From positions 1 to 64,000 of IMG/VR virus record IMGVR_UViG_3300021364_001752: 64,000 nt of DNA. One strand, given 5' to 3'. Position 1 is the stretch's first letter, and each line of letters opens with the position of its first letter. The stretch comes from a virus. The notes beneath the pieces are model-generated. The model ran no database searches, was not told the DNA's origin, and worked only from the letters and a program-made list of their open reading frames with translations. Shown here piece by piece: positions 15,038 through 45,473 of this stretch. Position numbers and translations under genes: made by a program.

Positions 15038-17344
15038 ATGTCCAATGGAACTATGATAGTGAAACGTAGTGGCGCGAAGGAGCCTCTAAACATCGACAAA
15101 ATACATTTTGTTGTTGAAGAAGCATGTAAAAATTTGGCAGGCGTAAGCAGTAGCCAAATTGAGATGAACGCCAATCTACAGTTTTACGATGGCATGACCA
15201 CAAAGGATATACAGGAAATTCTAGTGCGCAGTGCTAATGATTTAATTTCCTTGGACAATCCAAACTATCAAACAGCAGCAGCACGGCTTCTCAGCTATGG
15301 TATCAATAAAGAAGTTTTTGGTCGCTATGAGCCAATAAGCCTGCGTGAAATGATTGACCTAAATATCAAGCGTGGTGTTTATGATGATGAAATACTAGAC
15401 TGGTATACAGACGAAGAAATTGAACGTATGGATAGTTATATTCATCACAAGCGTGATGAAAACTTTACCTATGCAGGATTACGTCAAGTGGTAGACAAAT
15501 ATCTATGTCAGGATAGATCTACTAACCAATTATTCGAAACTCCTCAGTTCATGTATATGATGATTGCTGCCACGTTGTTTGCAAATTATCCTAAAGAAAC
15601 ACGTATGCACTATGTAAGGAGATACTACGATGCGACCTCTCTTTTTAGAATCAATATCCCAACGCCAGTCATGGCAGGAGTCAGAACACCTATACGACAA
15701 TTTGCAAGCTGCGTTCTTGTTGACAGCGATGATACCCTTGATAGCATCTTTGCCAGCGATATGTCTATTGGACGCTATACTGCGCAAAGAGCAGGAATTG
15801 GAATCAACTCGGGACGCATCAGAGCAGTAAACTCAAAAATACGTGGAGGTGAGGTAGCACACACAGGGATCATTCCATTTCTTAAAAAGTTTGAATCAAC
15901 TGTAAGATGTTGCACACAAAATGGAGTGCGTGGTGGTAGTGCGACTGTGCATTTTCCTCTTTGGCATTATGAAATCGAAGACATCCTTGTGCTGAAGAAC
16001 AACAAGGGCACTGAGGATAATCGTGTGCGCAAGTTAGACTACAGTATACAGTTGAACAAACTCATGTATGAGCGTCTACTACAAGACGGTGAAATTACAC
16101 TGTTCTCACCGCAAGACGTTCCTGGACTTTATGATGCGTTCTACAGCGACCAAGACAAGTTCAAAGAACTTTACGAAATGTATGAACGTAAAACCAGCAT
16201 CCGTAAAAAGAAAATTAGTGCAATGGAACTGTTCAGCGATCTTATCAAAGAACGTGCAGAAACAGGACGCATTTATATTATGAATGTAGATCATGCTAAT
16301 ACACACAGTTCATTCAAAGACACTGTTTACATGAGTAACCTGTGCCAAGAAATCACATTGCCCACAAAGCCACTACAGCACATTGATGATCCAGATGGCG
16401 AGATTGCTCTGTGTATCCTAAGTGCAATCAATGTAGGTATTATCAAAGACTTGGACGATCTAGAAGAGCTTTGCGATTTAGCTGTAAGAGCATTAGAAGA
16501 AATTATTGATTATCAGCGTTACCCAATTGTTGCTGCTGAGAAATCAACCAAGGCTAGACGTTCGTTAGGCATAGGTTATATCGGACTTGCTCACTATTTG
16601 GCAAAGAACAAAGTTCAATATAACGACCCAGAAGCATGGAAGGTTGTGCATGATCTTACTGAAGCGTTCCAATACTATCTACTCAAAGCCAGCAACAAAT
16701 TAGCGCAGGAGCGTGGTGCATGTGATTACTTTGACCGCACTAAATACAGCGACGGCATTCTTCCAATTGACACATACAAGAAGGATGTAGACGCAATAGT
16801 GGAGAACAAGTTAAACTATGATTGGGATAGTTTACGCAATGATATCAGAGAGCACGGGCTACGACATTCAACGTTGTCCGCACAGATGCCATCGGAGAGT
16901 AGCTCTGTTGTGTCGAACGCTACCAATGGAATCGAACCACCCCGCGGTTACCTGTCCGTTAAGAAGTCAAAGAAAGGGCCTCTTAAGCAGATTGTTCCGC
17001 AATATCAAAGTCTAAAACAATACTACACATTGTTGTGGGACATGCCTAGCAACGAAGGTTATATCAATGTAGTTGCAGTAATGCAAAAGTTCTTTGATCA
17101 GGCTATCAGCGGTAACTGGAGTTACAATCCAACACACTATCCAGATAATGAAGTGCCTATGAGTCAGATGATCAACGATTTGTTAATGACTTACAAACTG
17201 GGTTGGAAAACAAGTTACTATCAGAACACATACGATTATAAAACTGATCCTAGCGAAATTGAAGAAGAAAAACCGCAGACAGAATTAGCACCATCAGAAC
17301 TTGATCTCAGTGAAGATGAAATGTGCGAAGCCTGCGCTATATAA
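15038..17344 (+). CDS. nrdA: Ribonucleoside-diphosphate reductase alpha subunit (class I)
   Basis: A 768-aa catalytic subunit that reduces ribonucleoside diphosphates to deoxy forms. The N-terminal ATP-cone-like segment (MIVKRSGAKEPLNIDKIHFVVEEA) holds the usual activity-site sequence. Catalytic-core motifs include ASCVLVDSDDTLDSIF (first redox Cys), NLCQEITLPT with the thiyl-radical Cys, and QMPSESSSVVSNATNGIEPPR. The C-terminal CEACAI is the redox-exchange CxxC tail. It has an AAGGAG site. With nrdB and glutaredoxin downstream it forms the dNTP supply operon. The stop overlaps a perfect TATAAATA sequence (17340-17347), which may be chance. Confidence 0.97.
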   Translation: MSNGTMIVKRSGAKEPLNIDKIHFVVEEACKNLAGVSSSQIEMNANLQFYDGMTTKDIQEILVRSANDLISLDNPNYQTAAARLLSYGINKEVFGRYEPISLREMIDLNIKRGVYDDEILDWYTDEEIERMDSYIHHKRDENFTYAGLRQVVDKYLCQDRSTNQLFETPQFMYMMIAATLFANYPKETRMHYVRRYYDATSLFRINIPTPVMAGVRTPIRQFASCVLVDSDDTLDSIFASDMSIGRYTAQRAGIGINSGRIRAVNSKIRGGEVAHTGIIPFLKKFESTVRCCTQNGVRGGSATVHFPLWHYEIEDILVLKNNKGTEDNRVRKLDYSIQLNKLMYERLLQDGEITLFSPQDVPGLYDAFYSDQDKFKELYEMYERKTSIRKKKISAMELFSDLIKERAETGRIYIMNVDHANTHSSFKDTVYMSNLCQEITLPTKPLQHIDDPDGEIALCILSAINVGIIKDLDDLEELCDLAVRALEEIIDYQRYPIVAAEKSTKARRSLGIGYIGLAHYLAKNKVQYNDPEAWKVVHDLTEAFQYYLLKASNKLAQERGACDYFDRTKYSDGILPIDTYKKDVDAIVENKLNYDWDSLRNDIREHGLRHSTLSAQMPSESSSVVSNATNGIEPPRGYLSVKKSKKGPLKQIVPQYQSLKQYYTLLWDMPSNEGYINVVAVMQKFFDQAISGNWSYNPTHYPDNEVPMSQMINDLLMTYKLGWKTSYYQNTYDYKTDPSEIEEEKPQTELAPSELDLSEDEMCEACAI

Positions 17345-17353
17345 ATATAACAC

Positions 17354-17383
17354 TTGACATACAGCCCTCATGGGCTGTATACT
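17354..17383 (+). promoter_or_regulatory. Sigma-70 promoter with embedded 9-bp palindrome
   Basis: TTGACA (17354-17359), 18-base spacer, TATACT (17378-17383). The inverted repeat ATACAGCCC (17359-17367) / GGGCTGTAT (17372-17380) fills the spacer and touches both boxes, like an operator. It allows nrdB to be expressed apart from nrdA. It is the second promoter in the window with this design; the first is at 1099. Confidence 0.75.
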
Positions 17384-17413
17384 CTATACAGACACAATTA
17401 AAAAGGAATAACA

Positions 17414-18517
17414 ATGTCGAAGACTGTTTTTAATCAAGAAAAAGTTGACTTTACAAAACAAAACATGTTCTTTGGCGAAGACCAAAACACACAGCGTTAT
17501 GATACATTTCGCTTTCCTGTCTTCGACAAGTTGAACCAAACCATGCTAGGTTACTTCTGGCGTCCGGAGGAAGTGAGTCTGCAAAAAGATCGTGCTGACT
17601 TTGCTAACTTCCGTCCAGAACAAAAACATATTTTTACAAGTAACCTAAAATATCAAACATTGCTAGACAGTGTGCAAGGACGTGGCCCGTGCCTAGCATT
17701 TTTGCCACACGTAAGTTTGCCTGAGCTCGAAGGTTGCATTGTCACTTGGGACTTCTTTGAAACTATCCACTCACGTTCATATACACACATTATGAAAAAC
17801 GTGTATGCAGATCCTGCAGAGGTTTTTGATACTATCCTCGACGATGAAAAGATTATTGCTCGTGCAACCAGTGTAACCAAACACTACGATGCATTCAATG
17901 AAGCAGCTGATGCATACTTCCATAGAGGTGAAGGCTCTTTGTATGATGTAAAGAAAAAACTATATCTTGCAATGATGACAGTTAACATCTTAGAAGGGTT
18001 GCGTTTCTATGTAAGTTTTGCTTGCACGTTCGGCTTTGGAGAACTCAAGCTAATGGAAGGTAGTGCAAAGATTATTAGTCTTATCGCACGTGATGAAGCA
18101 CAGCACCTGGCACTAAGCACACACGTTCTTAAACTTTGGGCACAGGGCAAAGACGATCCAGAGATGGCCAAGGTTGCTAAAGAGTGTGAAGAAGATGTTT
18201 ATGACCTGTGGCGTGAATGTGTTGCAGAAGAAAAAGATTGGGCAGAGTATCTATTCAAAGACGGCTCAATGATTGGACTTAACACAAACCTATTGAATCA
18301 ATATGTTGAATATATTGCAAACAGACGTCTAAAAGCCCTTGGCTTCAATGCTATTTTTGATGCACCAGTGAACACCAATCCACTACCGTGGACACAGCAC
18401 TGGCTTTCAAGTTCAGGCTTGCAAGTTGCTCCACAGGAAACAGAAGTAGAAAGTTATATTATTGGCGGCATCAAACAAGATGTTGATAAAGACAAATTAA
18501 AAGGATTTTCACTATGA
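17414..18517 (+). CDS. nrdB: Ribonucleoside-diphosphate reductase beta subunit (class I)
   Basis: A 367-aa ferritin-like subunit carrying the di-iron/tyrosyl-radical cofactor that starts catalysis in NrdA. Iron-ligand helices are visible: CIVTWDFFETIHSRSYTHI (Asp/Glu and Glu-x-x-His), then ILEGLRFYVSFACTFGF and RDEAQHLALSTH (Glu and Glu-x-x-His). The C-terminal tail needed for NrdA binding is present. It has a GGAATAACA leader and a private promoter, and its stop overlaps the glutaredoxin start (ATGA). Length is normal. Confidence 0.97.
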   Translation: MSKTVFNQEKVDFTKQNMFFGEDQNTQRYDTFRFPVFDKLNQTMLGYFWRPEEVSLQKDRADFANFRPEQKHIFTSNLKYQTLLDSVQGRGPCLAFLPHVSLPELEGCIVTWDFFETIHSRSYTHIMKNVYADPAEVFDTILDDEKIIARATSVTKHYDAFNEAADAYFHRGEGSLYDVKKKLYLAMMTVNILEGLRFYVSFACTFGFGELKLMEGSAKIISLIARDEAQHLALSTHVLKLWAQGKDDPEMAKVAKECEEDVYDLWRECVAEEKDWAEYLFKDGSMIGLNTNLLNQYVEYIANRRLKALGFNAIFDAPVNTNPLPWTQHWLSSSGLQVAPQETEVESYIIGGIKQDVDKDKLKGFSL

Positions 18518-24973: not shown

Positions 24974-24986
24974 TAAATACAGTATG
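24974..24986 (+). promoter_or_regulatory. Late promoter abutting the start codon (leaderless arrangement)
   Basis: TAAATA (24974-24979), CAGT, ATG (24984). Same four-base spacing as at 4248, 19629, 39802 and 40588; no ribosome-binding sequence upstream. Confidence 0.7.
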
Positions 24987-25205
24987 TTGAGAAACGACCT
25001 TAAAGAATACTACAAAGTTTTCTACATGGTGAAAGGTCACCTCGACGCATCACCTCAGACAGTTATAGATAGTTACAACGGATACTTTCGTCGACTATGG
25101 ATCGATGGAAGTAACGGCGCTCCTCTGTATGACTATGAAGAACAGTTCGAACAAGCATGGGAAGACATACAAAATGGTTTCAAAGAAAATACAAGAACTC
25201 AGTAA
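24984..25205 (+). CDS. Hypothetical late protein, 73 aa, leaderless
   Basis: A small soluble protein (MLRNDLKEYYKVFYMVKGHLDASPQT...), not recognised. Its ATG coincides with the predicted late transcription start. It overlaps the next gene by 32 bases. Confidence 0.65.
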   Translation: MLRNDLKEYYKVFYMVKGHLDASPQTVIDSYNGYFRRLWIDGSNGAPLYDYEEQFEQAWEDIQNGFKENTRTQ

Positions 25206-25418: not shown

Positions 25419-25449
25419 TTGACCTCATTTACATAACATGTTATAAATA
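25419..25449 (+). promoter_or_regulatory. Dual promoter for the tmRNA locus
   Basis: TTGACC (25419-25424), 17-base spacer and TATAAA (25442-25447) form a sigma-70 promoter. The same -10 reads TATAAATA (25442-25449), the full T4 late consensus, so the tmRNA could be made early and late. A palindrome GCATATC-T-GATATGC lies just upstream (25394-25408). Confidence 0.7.
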
Positions 25450-25454
25450 GCTTT

Positions 25455-25516
25455 GTTAGCGTTGAAGCAACGTGGACACATACTGGACCCGGGTGCGATT
25501 CCCGGCAGCTCCACCA
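25455..25516 (+). ncRNA. ssrA: tmRNA acceptor piece (two-piece, permuted tmRNA)
   Basis: The 3' (tRNA-like) half of a circularly permuted tmRNA, placed upstream of the coding half as in alphaproteobacteria. It contains the T arm CCGGG-TGCGATT-CCCGG and ends CAGCTCCACCA at 25516. CAGCTCC pairs with the GGGGCTG that starts the coding piece at 25671, giving a 7-bp acceptor stem with a G-U wobble at pair 3, the alanine identity element. The CCA is encoded. The 5' end is estimated from the promoter. Confidence 0.88.
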
Positions 25517-25529
25517 TAAGGACACTATA

Positions 25530-25658
25530 ATGGCATTGATTTGGACAGGAATACAATACACAAGTTTAGCCGCACTACTGGGAATGTGTGTGACGAAATG
25601 GGTTATTGATTTCCGTGCTTGGAGAGCAGGCAGACAAAAGCCAAAATGCTGCGGATAG
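25530..25658 (+). CDS. 42-aa membrane peptide inside the tmRNA intervening segment
   Basis: ATG 25530 (AAGGA site seven bases upstream) to TAG 25658 lies wholly between the tmRNA acceptor and coding pieces. It encodes one hydrophobic segment (IQYTSLAALLGMCVTKWVI) followed by a basic tail ending KPKCCG. In permuted tmRNA precursors this segment is normally a short processed-out loop. An ORF with a proper ribosome site there is unusual. It may be chance, but length, ribosome site and membrane character argue for a real gene. Confidence 0.5.
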   Translation: MALIWTGIQYTSLAALLGMCVTKWVIDFRAWRAGRQKPKCCG

Positions 25659-25670
25659 TGTTTTTATGAT

Positions 25671-25865
25671 GGGGCTGATCAGGATCGACAGGTGTGAAAG
25701 TGAAGTGGAGTTAACCGGATGACTGCGTAATAAGTCAATCAAACTAGATGCAAACGATAATTTTGCACCATCTGAGTTCGCTCTAGCAGCGTAACCACAG
25801 GGGGTATGGGCTCCACCTAGCAACAGAACGGGCCTCCAAGATGAAACATAGGTTATAGCACATCT
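25671..25865 (+). ncRNA. ssrA: tmRNA coding piece (tag ANDNFAPSEFALAA)
   Basis: It starts GGGGCTGATC at 25671, which pairs with the acceptor piece upstream. The resume codon is GCA 25750 and the tag reads ANDNFAPSEFALAA, ending at TAA 25792. The AND start and ALAA end are typical for alphaproteobacterial tags recognised by Clp proteases. tmRNA rescues stalled ribosomes and marks the broken protein for degradation. The 3' end (about 25865) is estimated. The phage also encodes ClpS and ClpP. Confidence 0.9.
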
Positions 25866-25880
25866 GAAAGGAAACCCAAA

Positions 25881-27008
25881 ATGTTTAAAACAATCGCCGC
25901 ATCGATGATGCGGTTTTCAGCGTTAGCAGCGTTGGCATTGACTATTCTCACTCCATCACAAGCAGCAGCAGAAACCAAAGTAGGTTTTGTTTACGTAGGT
26001 CCAGTTGGCGACCTTGGTTGGACATACCGCCATGACATTGGACGTCAAGCTGTAGAACAAGCATACGGTGATGAAGTTTCTACTACCTACCTAGAAAACG
26101 TGCCAGAAGGTCCTGAAGCAGTTGAAGCAATTACTCAACTTGCAGAAGCTGGACACGATATTATCTTTACGACCTCTTTTGGATTCATGGATGCAACCAA
26201 CGAAGTTGCTTCTAGATATCCAGACATTGCATTTGAACATGCAACTGGTTATATTCGCGAAACTGAAAACATGGCTACCTTTGGAGCACGTTTTTATGAA
26301 GGGCGTGTTGTAGAAGGCATGCTTGCAGCGGAAATGACCAAAACCAACAAGATTGGTTACATCGCATCATTCCCTATTCCAGAAGTGGTGCGCGGTATCA
26401 ACGCATTTATGTTGGAAGCACAAAAGCACAATCCAGATGTTGAAGTTGACATTGTTTGGGTTTACACCTGGTTCAACCCAGCAGTTGAAGCATCAGCAGC
26501 ACAGGCATTGATTGATGAAGGTGCTGATATCATTGTGCAGCATACAGACTCGCCAGCGCCATTAAGTATTGCAGAAAAAGCTGGTGTATACGGATTCGGA
26601 CAAGCGTCAAACATGAGCCGCTTTGGTCCTAGTGCGCATCTTGTGAGTATTGTAGATGATTGGGATAGTTACTATGTTGACCGTGTAGGTGAAGTTATCA
26701 ACGGCACCTGGGAAGGCGGAGACACCTGGTGGGGTCTTACCAAAGACGGTCAAGGTGGCGAAAAGGGTATGGTAGCCCTTGAGAGCTACAATGTCGAAGT
26801 GCTTGGACAGGATCTAGTCGATCGTGCCATTGCACTTGAAGAGTCACTTGCTAATGGTGAGCGTCACGCATTTCCATGTGAAGGATTGTTTATGCAAGAC
26901 GGTTCGGTTCCAGAGGACTGTGCAAATGGCGAAGAGCATCTTACAGATGGAACTTTGCTTGGTATGAATTGGTATGTAAAAGGAATTGACGCATCCCTTC
27001 CAAACTAA
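25881..27008 (+). CDS. BMP-family periplasmic substrate-binding protein (nucleoside/purine-type)
   Basis: A 375-aa secreted protein with a signal peptide (about residues 1-30, ending PSQAAAE) and the BMP/Bmp-PnrA domain (VGFVYVGPVGDLGWTYRHDIG, FTTSFGFMDATNEVA, GFGQASNMSRFGPSAHLVSIVDDW). In alphaproteobacteria this family feeds ABC importers of purine nucleosides and related solutes. No permease or ATPase is encoded nearby, so it would have to work with host ABC components, raising or redirecting nucleoside uptake. It sits immediately after the tmRNA with a GAAAGGA site. Its GC-richer coding and close bacterial character suggest transfer from the host. GMP reductase at 34883 could use imported guanine compounds. 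Confidence 0.9.
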   Translation: MFKTIAASMMRFSALAALALTILTPSQAAAETKVGFVYVGPVGDLGWTYRHDIGRQAVEQAYGDEVSTTYLENVPEGPEAVEAITQLAEAGHDIIFTTSFGFMDATNEVASRYPDIAFEHATGYIRETENMATFGARFYEGRVVEGMLAAEMTKTNKIGYIASFPIPEVVRGINAFMLEAQKHNPDVEVDIVWVYTWFNPAVEASAAQALIDEGADIIVQHTDSPAPLSIAEKAGVYGFGQASNMSRFGPSAHLVSIVDDWDSYYVDRVGEVINGTWEGGDTWWGLTKDGQGGEKGMVALESYNVEVLGQDLVDRAIALEESLANGERHAFPCEGLFMQDGSVPEDCANGEEHLTDGTLLGMNWYVKGIDASLPN

Positions 27009-34882: not shown

Positions 34883-36019
34883 ATGCGTCTCGAAGAAGAC
34901 CTTAAACTAGACTACAAGGACGTCCTAATTCGTCCCAAGCGTAGCACTCTCAAAAGTCGTTCTGAAGTTAGTCTCGAACGTAAAACAAACTTTCGTAACT
35001 ATGAACCAGACTTTGATATTGGAGACTACCATTACCGTGGTATTCCAATTATGGCAAGTAATATGGATGGTGTTGGCACATTTGAAATGGCTGACAAACT
35101 TGCCGAAGGCGATATATTCACCTGTCTAGTAAAGACCTATAGCGTAGAGGAACTAGTTGAATATTTCAATGGTCCTATTGAACGCACTGAATGTGTTGCA
35201 ATGAGTATTGGCACAGGTGATAGTGATTATAATAAACTTATCCAAGTTAAGAAAGAATGTGATAACAAATTAAAATATGTTTGTATGGACATTGCAAATG
35301 GATACAGTGAACATTTTGCTGACCATGTAAGAAAGGTCCGCGAAGATTTTCCTGATCTTGTGATTATTGCTGGTAATGTTGTCACTAGAGAAATGACGGA
35401 GGAATTGATTCTTGCTGGAGCCGACATTGTTAAAGTGGGCATTGGCCCTGGTAGTGTTTGCACTACTCGTATTCAAACTGGTGTGGGTTATCCACAACTT
35501 TCGGCTGTTATTGAGTGTGCTGATGCTGCTCATGGTCTCGGCGGTCACATTATTGCTGATGGCGGGTGTTCGACGCCTGGAGATGTCGCAAAAGCCTTTG
35601 CCGCAGGAGCCGACTTCGTCATGCTTGGAGGAATGCTTGCAGGACACGATGAAGGCGGAGGAGAATCCATTTTCAAATATGAAGGAACTGGTGAGTTCTA
35701 TTTTATGAAAGAGGACGAAATTTACAAGCCGGTTATCAACAGAAAAGAATATCGTAAGTTTTACGGTATGAGTAGCGAAACAGCTAATGAAAAACATTTT
35801 GGCGGACTTAAAGACTATCGTTCGTCGGAAGGTCGCACAGTGCTTGTGCCATACAGAGGACCTGTAGCTAAAACAGTGCAGGAAATCATGGGTGGTGTGC
35901 GTAGCACCTGCACCTATACGGGTGCAAAGAAAATCAAGCAGTTGCCCAAGTGTGCAACTTTTATACGTTGTTCACAAACACATAATTCAGTGTATGAAGG
36001 AAGCACAATTGGTAAATAA
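34883..36019 (+). CDS. guaC: GMP reductase
   Basis: A 378-aa TIM-barrel enzyme that converts GMP to IMP with NADPH, releasing ammonia. It aligns with E. coli GuaC from residue 1 ([53 protein letters not shown]). The catalytic Cys is C193 in GPGSVCTTR. There are no CBS domains, which separates it from IMP dehydrogenase. The C-terminal part ([29 protein letters not shown]) is intact. It would turn host or imported guanine nucleotides into IMP and then adenine nucleotides, useful for an AT-rich phage. Confidence 0.94.
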
Positions 36020-36566: not shown

Positions 36567-36872
36567 ATGAGTGTTGATACAGAAGTTGTATTAGACGAAA
36601 AAATTAAAATCAAACAGAAACAGCCAAAAAAATATAAAGTTGTTTTCCTAAACGATGATACTACGCCTATGGAGTTTGTTGTAGGTGTGTTAATGGAAAT
36701 ATTCAAACACTCTGCCGCTACAGCAGAAAAAATTACAATGACTATACACAACGAAGGCAGTGGTGTCGTTGGTGTTTACAGTTACGAAATTGCAGAACAA
36801 AAAAGTATCGAAACTACACAAGCTGCAAGAAACAATGGTTTTCATTTACAGGTTAGATTAGAAGAAGAATGA
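36567..36872 (+). CDS. clpS: ClpS, adaptor of the ClpAP protease
   Basis: A 101-aa adaptor. The ClpS domain covers residues about 20-101: YKVVFLNDDTTPMEFVVGVL with the N-degron pocket residues N-D-D and Met, then TMTIHNEGSGVVGVYSYEIAEQK with the His that contacts the N-terminal residue. ClpS delivers proteins with destabilising N-terminal residues to ClpAP and blocks ClpA from SsrA-tagged substrates. Here it would shift host Clp specificity while the phage also provides tmRNA and ClpP. It overlaps the heme oxygenase start by ATGA. Confidence 0.93.
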   Translation: MSVDTEVVLDEKIKIKQKQPKKYKVVFLNDDTTPMEFVVGVLMEIFKHSAATAEKITMTIHNEGSGVVGVYSYEIAEQKSIETTQAARNNGFHLQVRLEEE

Positions 36873-37405
36873 GCAAACTCAAAGAACTTACTTGGGCAAA
36901 TCATCAAAAAGCAGAACGCACAGAACATGCCCGTAAACTGCTAAAAGGAATGACTCCTGAAGAGTATCACAGATACATTTATAATCAATATGTGCAATAC
37001 GCAGTTTTAGAAAGTAGAGCAAAAGATGTTTCTGCTCTTGCTGGTATAGAAACTATATGTAGAGCAAAAAATATATTAGAAGACTTGGAAGAATTAGAAT
37101 CAGAATTTGATATTCAACGCAATGTCGACTTGCTTTGTCCGGTGGTTGCTCAATATACAGGACATGTAATGAGTCTAACTGAAATTGATGACTTGCTTGC
37201 ACACATTTACGTAAGACATTTTGGTGATATGTATGGCGGACAAATGATCAACAAACGCAACCCCGGCTCGGGTAAAATGTATGAGTTTGAAGATGTAGAA
37301 GGTTTGAAACTTACGGTAAGAGCAAGGCTAAAAGACTCAATGGCAGACGAAGCCAATCGCTGCTTCGAGTTTGCAATGCAATTATTCGAAGAACTTGATG
37401 GTTAA
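36869..37405 (+). CDS. Heme oxygenase (biliverdin-forming)
   Basis: A 178-aa all-helical enzyme that opens heme to biliverdin, releasing iron and CO, with electrons from ferredoxin. The proximal ligand is H12 in WANHQKAERTEH. The distal helix YVRHFGDMYGGQMI (residues 114-127) holds the Gly pair over the heme. It is shorter than plant/cyanobacterial HO1 and fits the phage/alphaproteobacterial HemO group. The bilin reductase at 38093 would use its product. Stop overlaps the next start. Confidence 0.9.
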   Translation: MSKLKELTWANHQKAERTEHARKLLKGMTPEEYHRYIYNQYVQYAVLESRAKDVSALAGIETICRAKNILEDLEELESEFDIQRNVDLLCPVVAQYTGHVMSLTEIDDLLAHIYVRHFGDMYGGQMINKRNPGSGKMYEFEDVEGLKLTVRARLKDSMADEANRCFEFAMQLFEELDG

Positions 37406-43013: not shown

Positions 43014-43721
43014 ATGAAAAAAATAATATATGCCGCCTTATTTGGTCTTATTAGTTCGGTTGCATTAGCAAATGAAATTTATATCAGTCAAATAGGTGAC
43101 ACATTAGACTTAGACATTACCCAAAGCGGTGATAACAACAAAATAGGAACCAGTTTAGCCGATATGGTTATTCAAGGTGACGACATGACATTCAGTATTA
43201 CACAAACTGGAGATAGCAATACGATTGATGCAACTATAAAAGGAGCCAATTATACAGGCACATGGGATTTTACAGGAAGCAATAACGATGTTGATCTTTT
43301 ATGTAGTTCAACTACCGCAGGCAATTGTGATACTGTAACCCTTAACATAGATACCACTGGCGGATACAACAATTTCACATTTGCTATTGGCGAAACCGCT
43401 TCGGCTGACAGCAGTATTATTAACTTTACTGTGACAGGGGATAGTCAAGTATTTGATGTTACTGTAGATGGCGAAGCAATTGATGTAACAGTTGTAATTG
43501 ATGATGGCACAAGCGGTCTTACAAACACAGCGGGCAACACTAACAATTTAACAATTGATACAAGTGGCAATGGCGGAACCAACGGTAACACAGTTGACTT
43601 GAACATTACAGGTTCGGGTGGGACATACAACGTTACACAAACAGGAACGCTAATTGATCAGACCATTGATGCAACATTCAGTGGCGATGACGCAACAGTT
43701 GATATCACACAGAGCGACTGA
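43014..43721 (+). CDS. Curlin-repeat protein 1 (CsgA/CsgB-like)
   Basis: A 235-aa exported protein with a signal peptide (residues 1-20, ending VALANE). The mature part carries curlin-type repeats with Q-x-G-D-x-N spacing: ISQIGDTLDLDITQSGDNNK, FSITQTGDSNTIDATI, NVTQTGTLIDQTI, ending VDITQSD. Each predicts a strand-turn-strand unit of an amyloid beta-solenoid. It is longer than CsgA, with a Thr/Asp/Gly-rich middle. As the first gene after csgG it is the obvious cargo. Whether it forms amyloid cannot be told from sequence alone. Confidence 0.82.
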   Translation: MKKIIYAALFGLISSVALANEIYISQIGDTLDLDITQSGDNNKIGTSLADMVIQGDDMTFSITQTGDSNTIDATIKGANYTGTWDFTGSNNDVDLLCSSTTAGNCDTVTLNIDTTGGYNNFTFAIGETASADSSIINFTVTGDSQVFDVTVDGEAIDVTVVIDDGTSGLTNTAGNTNNLTIDTSGNGGTNGNTVDLNITGSGGTYNVTQTGTLIDQTIDATFSGDDATVDITQSD

Positions 43722-44812
43722 TGTGGAGATTGTTATTTGTGCTGCTGTTTTTTGCCAGCAGTGCTATAGCTCAAATAGGCGAAATCGCTGACATAGAAGG
43801 CAGCGGCATTGTTAAGCGTGACAGTGAAAAGATAAAAGGTGAACTGGGCATTGGTGTTCAAATGGCCGACAAAATTATTACGGCCAAAGGACGTATGCAA
43901 TTACACTTCTCTGACGAAACTCGTGTAGACGTAACTGAGCATAGTGCAATGGTGATCGATGAGTTTATATATGATCCTGCACAAGGCACAGGTGCATTAA
44001 AAATGCGAGCTACATTGGGTGCAGTAAGATATGCCAGCGGACAGATAGCCAAAACCAGCAGACAAAGAGTTAGTATCAGAACACCTAGTGCAACTATCGG
44101 TGTTCGCGGCACAGACTTTATAATGATTGTTGATGAAATAGGCGGCAGCATGGTTACCCTCTTACCTAGCTGTGATGACAGAGGCTTTTGTATGGTTGGT
44201 GAAATTACTGTAGAGAGCGATGCAGGTATTGTAATAATGAATCAAGCCTATCAAACAACAATAGTTAAACACAGTGCTGCTCCTCCTGCGCCACCTAAGA
44301 TATTAGACTTACCAGACGATCTTTTACGTGCAATGTTGATAGTAAGAAAGACTTCTCCTTACGATGAAATTAATGAAGAGGCTGTAGCTGCAACAGATAT
44401 TTTAAAATTTGATTTTCTAGCATTTGATGGTTTAGATGAGGATTTACTTAATGCAGATGAGCTATGGGTAACTGATTTAGACAATGAATCTTATTTAAAC
44501 CAAATGTTTGTAGATCAGTTAACCCAGGCACTGAAAGAATTGTTCGCATTACTTACAAGTCTATTGGATTTACAAGCAGAAGAATTTATGCGTATACAAG
44601 TATTTGGATACGATCCCGAAACTGGTATAACCTTAGAAGACCAGCCACCAAATTATGTATTCACACGAACAGAAAATACACACCATGTGAGATTAACATT
44701 GAATGAAAATTATGGTTATAATATTGATTTAATTCAAAACGATTTTTCAATATTTGATTACAGTATAGGAGTAGGAGCAAATGACATTTACATCAATCAG
44801 CAAGAAAATTAA
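43721..44812 (+). CDS. FecR-domain protein in the curli-type operon
   Basis: A 363-aa exported protein with a signal peptide (residues 1-17, ending SSAIA). A FecR domain spans about residues 45-160: DKIITAKGRMQLHFSDETRVDV, then VSIRTPSATIGVRGTDFIMIVDE, the hallmark TP-T/S-A-x-x-G-V-R-G-T. In bacteria such domains sit in the periplasm or at the surface as sensors or peptidoglycan/sugar-binding scaffolds. The remaining 200 residues are acidic and helical, then beta. It lies between the two curlin genes, overlapping the second by 32 bases, so a role as fibre anchor or assembly factor is likely. Confidence 0.8.
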   Translation: MWRLLFVLLFFASSAIAQIGEIADIEGSGIVKRDSEKIKGELGIGVQMADKIITAKGRMQLHFSDETRVDVTEHSAMVIDEFIYDPAQGTGALKMRATLGAVRYASGQIAKTSRQRVSIRTPSATIGVRGTDFIMIVDEIGGSMVTLLPSCDDRGFCMVGEITVESDAGIVIMNQAYQTTIVKHSAAPPAPPKILDLPDDLLRAMLIVRKTSPYDEINEEAVAATDILKFDFLAFDGLDEDLLNADELWVTDLDNESYLNQMFVDQLTQALKELFALLTSLLDLQAEEFMRIQVFGYDPETGITLEDQPPNYVFTRTENTHHVRLTLNENYGYNIDLIQNDFSIFDYSIGVGANDIYINQQEN

Positions 44813-45473
44813 ATTGCTGGTATTATTTGCAGCATTTCCTGCCCATGCTAACGAAATTTATATTACGCAAACCGGTGATAGCCTTGCCTTGCGTGTTGAG
44901 CAGCGAAGTGCAGACAATTATGTCAATCTAAGCAGCACTGGTAATACAAACGACATAAGCATTACACAAGGCATGCATTACGATGGCTCTACATATTGGG
45001 TAGACACAGACGAGACTGGTGGACACGAAGCATACTGGACCATTACTGGTGCAAACAATACCGTGTGGAGTAGTCAAACAGATGTCAACAGAGGTGGTGG
45101 TGGAGGATCTCCGCACCATTTGGCAAACATAGTAAATGGAGATTACAATACAATTGCACATACACAAATGGGAAAAGCAGGACACGATGGCTTTGTAGAA
45201 ATACAAGGTGACAACAATGATGTTACACTTTATCAGAGAGGTAATGGTGGTGCAAAGTGGGCAGATGTTGTGCTCAACGGTGATGGACATAGTGTAGACG
45301 TTAACCAAAGAGGAAGCCAAAGTGCTAATGCTACTGTAGATTTAACCAATAGTGGCGGTGCATATGATTTTATACTCACACAGAATGTTACTACTAGTGC
45401 TGATACATATAGTATAACTGGCATTTGCACAAACAGTGCAGGTTGCGCATTGTCTGTTGATCGCAACAACTAA
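44781..45473 (+). CDS. Curlin-repeat protein 2
   Basis: A 230-aa exported protein with a signal peptide (residues 1-23, ending FPAHAN). The mature start EIYITQTGDSLALRVEQRS parallels curlin protein 1 (EIYISQIGDTLDLDITQS), so the two arose by duplication or form a major/minor pair like CsgA/CsgB. Repeats continue (DISITQGMHYDG, VEIQGDNNDVTLYQRGNGG, VDVNQRGSQSANATV, FILTQNV). It is richer in aromatic and His residues than protein 1. The AGGAG site lies in the end of the FecR gene. Confidence 0.82.
   Translation: MTFTSISKKIKLLVLFAAFPAHANEIYITQTGDSLALRVEQRSADNYVNLSSTGNTNDISITQGMHYDGSTYWVDTDETGGHEAYWTITGANNTVWSSQTDVNRGGGGGSPHHLANIVNGDYNTIAHTQMGKAGHDGFVEIQGDNNDVTLYQRGNGGAKWADVVLNGDGHSVDVNQRGSQSANATVDLTNSGGAYDFILTQNVTTSADTYSITGICTNSAGCALSVDRNN

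Follow-up and report, generated by a model that had tools for sequence, protein, structure and literature searches.

Can a segment that is normally cut out of a tmRNA precursor contain a genuine protein gene? This question was raised by the window, a stretch of 64,000 nt that is part of an 80,455-bp IMG/VR virus record (IMGVR_UViG_3300021364_001752). The original prediction, made from the sequence alone, was that a 42-codon ORF with an AAGGA ribosome binding site and a membrane segment lies between the acceptor piece and the coding piece of a tmRNA. If the ORF were real, one transcript would give the tmRNA halves as well as a membrane peptide, and processing and translation would compete.

As a first step, the tmRNA and the ORF were verified. 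ARAGORN found one tmRNA in the window, which is circularly permuted and has the tag ANDNFAPSEFALAA, a reading frame ending in a proteolysis-type tail. The Rfam model tmRNA_permuted (RF04321) scored 108.4 bits against a gathering score of 47, and alpha_tmRNA (RF01849) scored 97.9 bits against 50. The acceptor piece with its encoded CCA lies upstream of the coding piece, and the acceptor stem has the full 7 bp plus GGG. The features of the locus, and further genes of the window, are compiled in the table. The predicted arrangement was confirmed to the base.

Features of the tmRNA locus and further genes of the window (window coordinates)
Position	Strand	Feature	Remarks
25419-25447	+	sigma70-like promoter of the tmRNA transcript	TTGACC-N17-TATAAA
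25455-25516	+	tmRNA acceptor piece (3' tRNA-like half)	ends in encoded CCA; RF04321 match starts at 25455
25517-25670	+	intervening segment (IVS), absent from mature tmRNA	154 nt between CCA and GGGG
25517-25528	+	5' strand of the IVS closing stem	contains the Shine-Dalgarno sequence (SD) AAGGA (25518-25522); pairs with 25655-25666
25530-25658	+	nested ORF MALIWTGIQYTSLAALLGMCVTKWVIDFRAWRAGRQKPKCCG	42 aa; ATG at 25530, 7 nt after AAGGA; stop TAG in the stem
25655-25666	+	3' strand of the closing stem	contains the stop codon UAG (25656-25658)
25671-25837	+	tmRNA coding piece (5' tRNA-like half plus tag region)	starts with GGGGCTGA; 3' end approximate, from the RF01849 match end
25750-25794	+	tag reading frame ANDNFAPSEFALAA*	ARAGORN coding part 328-372 of the gene at 25423
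24984-25205		ORF resembling the IVS ORF of phage contig L104	
58310-58927		ClpP protease	Pfam CLP_protease, E 4.8e-65
34883-36019, 36869-37405, 15038-18517, 25881-27008		metabolic genes: IMPDH/GMP reductase, heme oxygenase, ribonucleotide reductase large and small chains, and a PnrA-like substrate-binding protein	the last directly after the tmRNA
43014-45473		two ORFs with repeated QxGDxN-like motifs flanking a FecR-domain protein	by eye curlin-like, not tested

To unravel whether the ORF is a gene, related sequences were searched with the ORF in its open frame, and six related contigs were found (sequences fetched for comparison are designated L with a number). L258, L259 and L260 carry the ORF in the IVS of tmRNAs whose backbones differ from that of the window and, for L260, also from the other two. 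L261, L262 and L263 carry it free-standing, directly after the 3' end of a tmRNA, while their own IVS is noncoding and has a length of 29 nt (L261, L262) or 92 nt (L263). AAGGA precedes the ATG in all seven copies. The window differs from L258 by 5 synonymous and 0 nonsynonymous changes, from L261/L262 by 4 and 0, and from L263 by 9 and 3 (omega 0.08), and dN/dS against the six relatives was 0–0.09. The ORF is under strong purifying selection. A dN/dS below 1 had been named in advance as the test for a real gene, and stop codons or frameshifts in relatives that keep both tmRNA pieces as the observation that would speak against it. The first was found, and no stop or frameshift was detected in any homologue. 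Because the reading frame is also conserved outside the IVS, RNA structure of the IVS cannot explain the conservation. A profile search returned the same six contigs, and a degenerate pattern search for divergent copies returned only the same six contigs' kin plus two chance hits, L388 and L389. A tblastn search of sequenced phages gave only weak chance matches. A misassembly was ruled out, because the ORF occurs in the IVSs of three other contigs with different backbones, and because four isolate genomes of the phage Melnitz carry a different IVS ORF.

The properties of the encoded protein were less clear. The best 19-residue Kyte-Doolittle mean was 1.46, and AlphaFold2 predicted one helix, residues 3–36, with a mean pLDDT of 78.5. 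The C-terminus is basic and ends with KCCG. Membrane association is plausible and only moderately supported, but it is not shown, and these values do not decide whether the helix spans a membrane. The best PHROG match had an E value of 0.0029 and there was no Pfam hit, so no family with known function could be assigned, and the ORF is not a homing endonuclease by domain content.

To determine whether this is an isolated case, viral contigs were scanned with a tag pattern, an acceptor pattern and a CCA+TAAGGA pattern, followed by ARAGORN and paired nhmmer models, which yielded about 160 phage permuted tmRNAs. In the set chosen only by tag pattern, and thus without regard to IVS content, 18 of 96 distinct IVSs contain an SD-led ORF of at least 20 codons, while 100 dinucleotide shuffles gave 3.6 on average and 8 at most. 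In the set chosen by CCA+TAAGGA 31 of 33 do, but this set is selected for the SD. Together with cases recognized by hand, for which the criteria differed from those of the automatic test, 72 IVS ORFs in 35 sequence families were obtained by our clustering, in which the L024 entry was mis-started and counts as one family only. Most loci are metagenomic fragments and are partly redundant. Over the 13 families with two or more IVS members, the minimum changes at codon positions 1/2/3 were 168/82/295. The original prediction considered a single case, whereas the pattern is general in phages.

The families include HNH nucleases, which fill the IVS only in L036 and L222 and suggest that homing could spread IVS contents, a DUF2061-like membrane protein just under the Pfam cut-off (L117), and hydrophobic multi-segment proteins (L122, L245, L024). 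L024 has an IVS of 499 nt with two tandem ORFs, a short one of the PKYLSG type and one of 120 aa with hydrophobic stretches. Several families have free-standing homologues outside the IVS in other phages, some of them adjacent to the tmRNA. The L028/L185/L242 gene ends just before the tmRNA in L035, L090 and L121, and the L104 gene resembles an ORF of the window itself (see table). As those loci were fetched because they contain tmRNAs, closeness to the tmRNA is partly due to sampling.

Isolated phages were also inspected. The tmRNA of the cultured methylophage Melnitz (four genomes) has a 142-nt IVS with an SD and an ORF of the same PKYLSG type as IVS ORFs in L024 and L062. It is unannotated there, under a feature labelled SsrA, and its stop lies 42 nt inside the mature tmRNA. 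In contrast, the 410-nt IVS of Sinorhizobium phage Phosso (L377, 803–1212) has no SD-led ORF. A blastn search with the L026 tmRNA region matched only the tmRNA of the four Melnitz genomes, and tblastn with three other IVS ORFs as well as blastn with the L172 and L182 regions found nothing in isolate phages. Melnitz has also been reported to contain curli genes (PMC9004378).

As a control, the same tag pattern was applied to bacterial and archaeal genomes. This yielded 61 permuted tmRNAs with a median IVS of 29 nt, representing 55 distinct IVSs, none of which passed the automatic SD-led ORF test. The contig L298 does carry a 77-aa homologue of the phage L066 ORF, but it fails the SD motif. It is a marine contig labelled Euryarchaeota, and it is inferred that it is probably phage DNA. 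Of 150 listed matches in 190 alphaproteobacterial genomes, only 4 have a span implying an IVS of about 86 nt or more. These four and one slightly shorter case were read, and none holds an SD-led ORF filling the IVS. A general bacterial feature was therefore rejected.

The anatomy of the locus was characterized next. The ends of phage IVSs pair with 9.86 bp with their own partner, against 6.11 bp with the partner of another phage and a maximum of 6.65 in 200 shuffles, which supports a covarying stem that closes the IVS. In the window the SD is predicted to be more than 99% paired in this stem (unpaired probability below 0.01), while the A and U of the AUG are mostly unpaired, and folding of 25455–25700 gave z = -3.99. 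The two strands of the stem carry the SD and the stop codon, and thus the gene fills the loop. The SD lies in the 5' strand in 22 of the 35 families and after the stem in 15, with some families showing both, but sampling favours the former. At the position of the sigma70-like promoter 62 of 96 phage tmRNAs have a match of at least 10/12, most of them ending about 70 nt before the CCA end, against 7 of 96 after shuffling. A generic promoter scan did not report the site in the window, because it requires T at the last -10 position.

Taken together, we explain the locus with fairly high confidence as follows. The IVS of this permuted tmRNA is an intron-like slot that carries a genuine small-protein gene. 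The sequence comparison shows that the ORF is a conserved coding gene, and that close relatives carry the same gene either in the IVS or immediately downstream of a tmRNA. It is well supported that a promoter before the acceptor piece drives a single precursor and that the stem closes the IVS. The remainder is inference. As the IVS is removed by tRNA-type processing, i.e., RNase P and 3'-end processing as established for two-piece tmRNAs (PMC9004378, PMC11915505), a gene at this place would not damage the mature tmRNA and would be expressed with it. Ribosomes would load on the SD as it emerges, before the 3' strand about 140 nt later has been made, and once the stem closes, initiation would be shut and the ends would be processed. 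The cutting of this precursor into two mature RNAs is inferred from homology, no RNA, ribosome profiling or proteomic data exist, neither the peptide nor precursor processing has been observed, and the analysis does not tell which RNA, excised or precursor, is translated. As the SD is in a stable stem, translation might be weak, and only three other IVS copies of this ORF were found. The peptide is probably a small single-helix, perhaps membrane-attached, phage protein of unknown target. The original interpretation was thus supported with respect to a real gene and one transcript for both products, while competition between processing and translation is plausible but was not tested experimentally, and the membrane nature is only moderately supported.

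Alternative explanations were considered. That the ORF arose by chance in a noncoding spacer and that its conservation comes from the RNA structure is very unlikely. It is true that 78 of the 96 IVSs of the unbiased set have no SD-led ORF, and that close tmRNA relatives such as L119, L018 and L044 have noncoding IVSs. However, the divergence is third-position-biased and almost wholly synonymous, many families have free-standing homologues, and the ORF stays conserved in L261–L263. Synonymous-only divergence in copies free of the IVS had been set as the finding that would exclude this reading, and it was found. A more serious possibility, although we regard it as less likely than not, is that the IVS is merely a harmless landing site, in which genes are swapped by recombination or HNH-driven homing, and that linkage to the tmRNA has no regulatory meaning. 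The unrelated cargo including HNH nucleases, the free-standing homologues elsewhere, and L129, which has a 97% identical acceptor but a different IVS start, are in accordance with this view. On the other hand, all seven copies of the window ORF are tmRNA-linked, although three are outside the IVS, and SD and stop are built into the closing stem.

The location of SD and stop in opposite strands of one stem, and the stem-type SD in 22 families, would also fit to a regulatory role, in which a ribosome on the SD holds the stem open and delays maturation, thereby coupling tmRNA supply to ribosome availability. This is unlikely at present, because fifteen families have members with the SD after the stem, the unrelated ORF sequences suggest cargo rather than a conserved sensor, and no kinetics are known. 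It is tempting to speculate that translation of the nested ORF and tmRNA maturation control each other. In families whose ORF runs past the RNase P site, including Melnitz, cleavage would then turn the ORF into a nonstop message that is tagged by the newly made tmRNA itself, a self-limiting loop. This is not excluded, but it is similarly doubtful.

The results show that the discarded spacer of a stable noncoding RNA gene serves many phages as a home for protein genes, which were probably missed because tmRNA genes are treated as noncoding during annotation. Small phage proteins are thereby linked to ribosome rescue, and it becomes a testable question whether translation of the spacer changes the amount of tmRNA. 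The phage also encodes its own ClpP in addition to a tmRNA that adds an ALAA-type degradation tag, and the two might work together. The pattern seems to be unreported, as text searches of the open PMC literature, which did not extend to subscription papers such as Sharkady and Williams (2004), turned up no report of protein genes in a tmRNA IVS.

The locus can be compared with three known systems. arfA-type nonstop mRNAs are controlled by tmRNA (PMC10107115), and in 11 of the 35 families at least one member's ORF runs into the mature tmRNA, so that RNase P cleavage would leave a nonstop message. The window ORF does not belong to this class, because its stop lies 12 nt before the cleavage site. 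The closest relatives are the two-piece tmRNAs of Alphaproteobacteria and of phages such as Melnitz (PMC9004378, PMC11915505; RF04321, RF01849). The window tmRNA is a member of this family, with the same gene order, acceptor-stem pairing, tag frame and closing stem. However, described IVSs are treated as discarded spacers. One tRNA-Ala and one repetitive element in an IVS, but no protein genes, are reported in the examined text of PMC11915505, and an ORF in the Melnitz IVS is not mentioned in that of PMC9004378, although one is present. Group I introns in tmRNA genes can contain ORFs including homing endonucleases (PMC11915505), and in both cases a protein gene rides in a segment that is removed from a tmRNA transcript, some of the IVS ORFs being HNH nucleases. 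In contrast to these introns, self-splicing and ligation are not involved, the flanks stay two molecules held by pairing, and the cargo consists mostly of small non-nuclease proteins.
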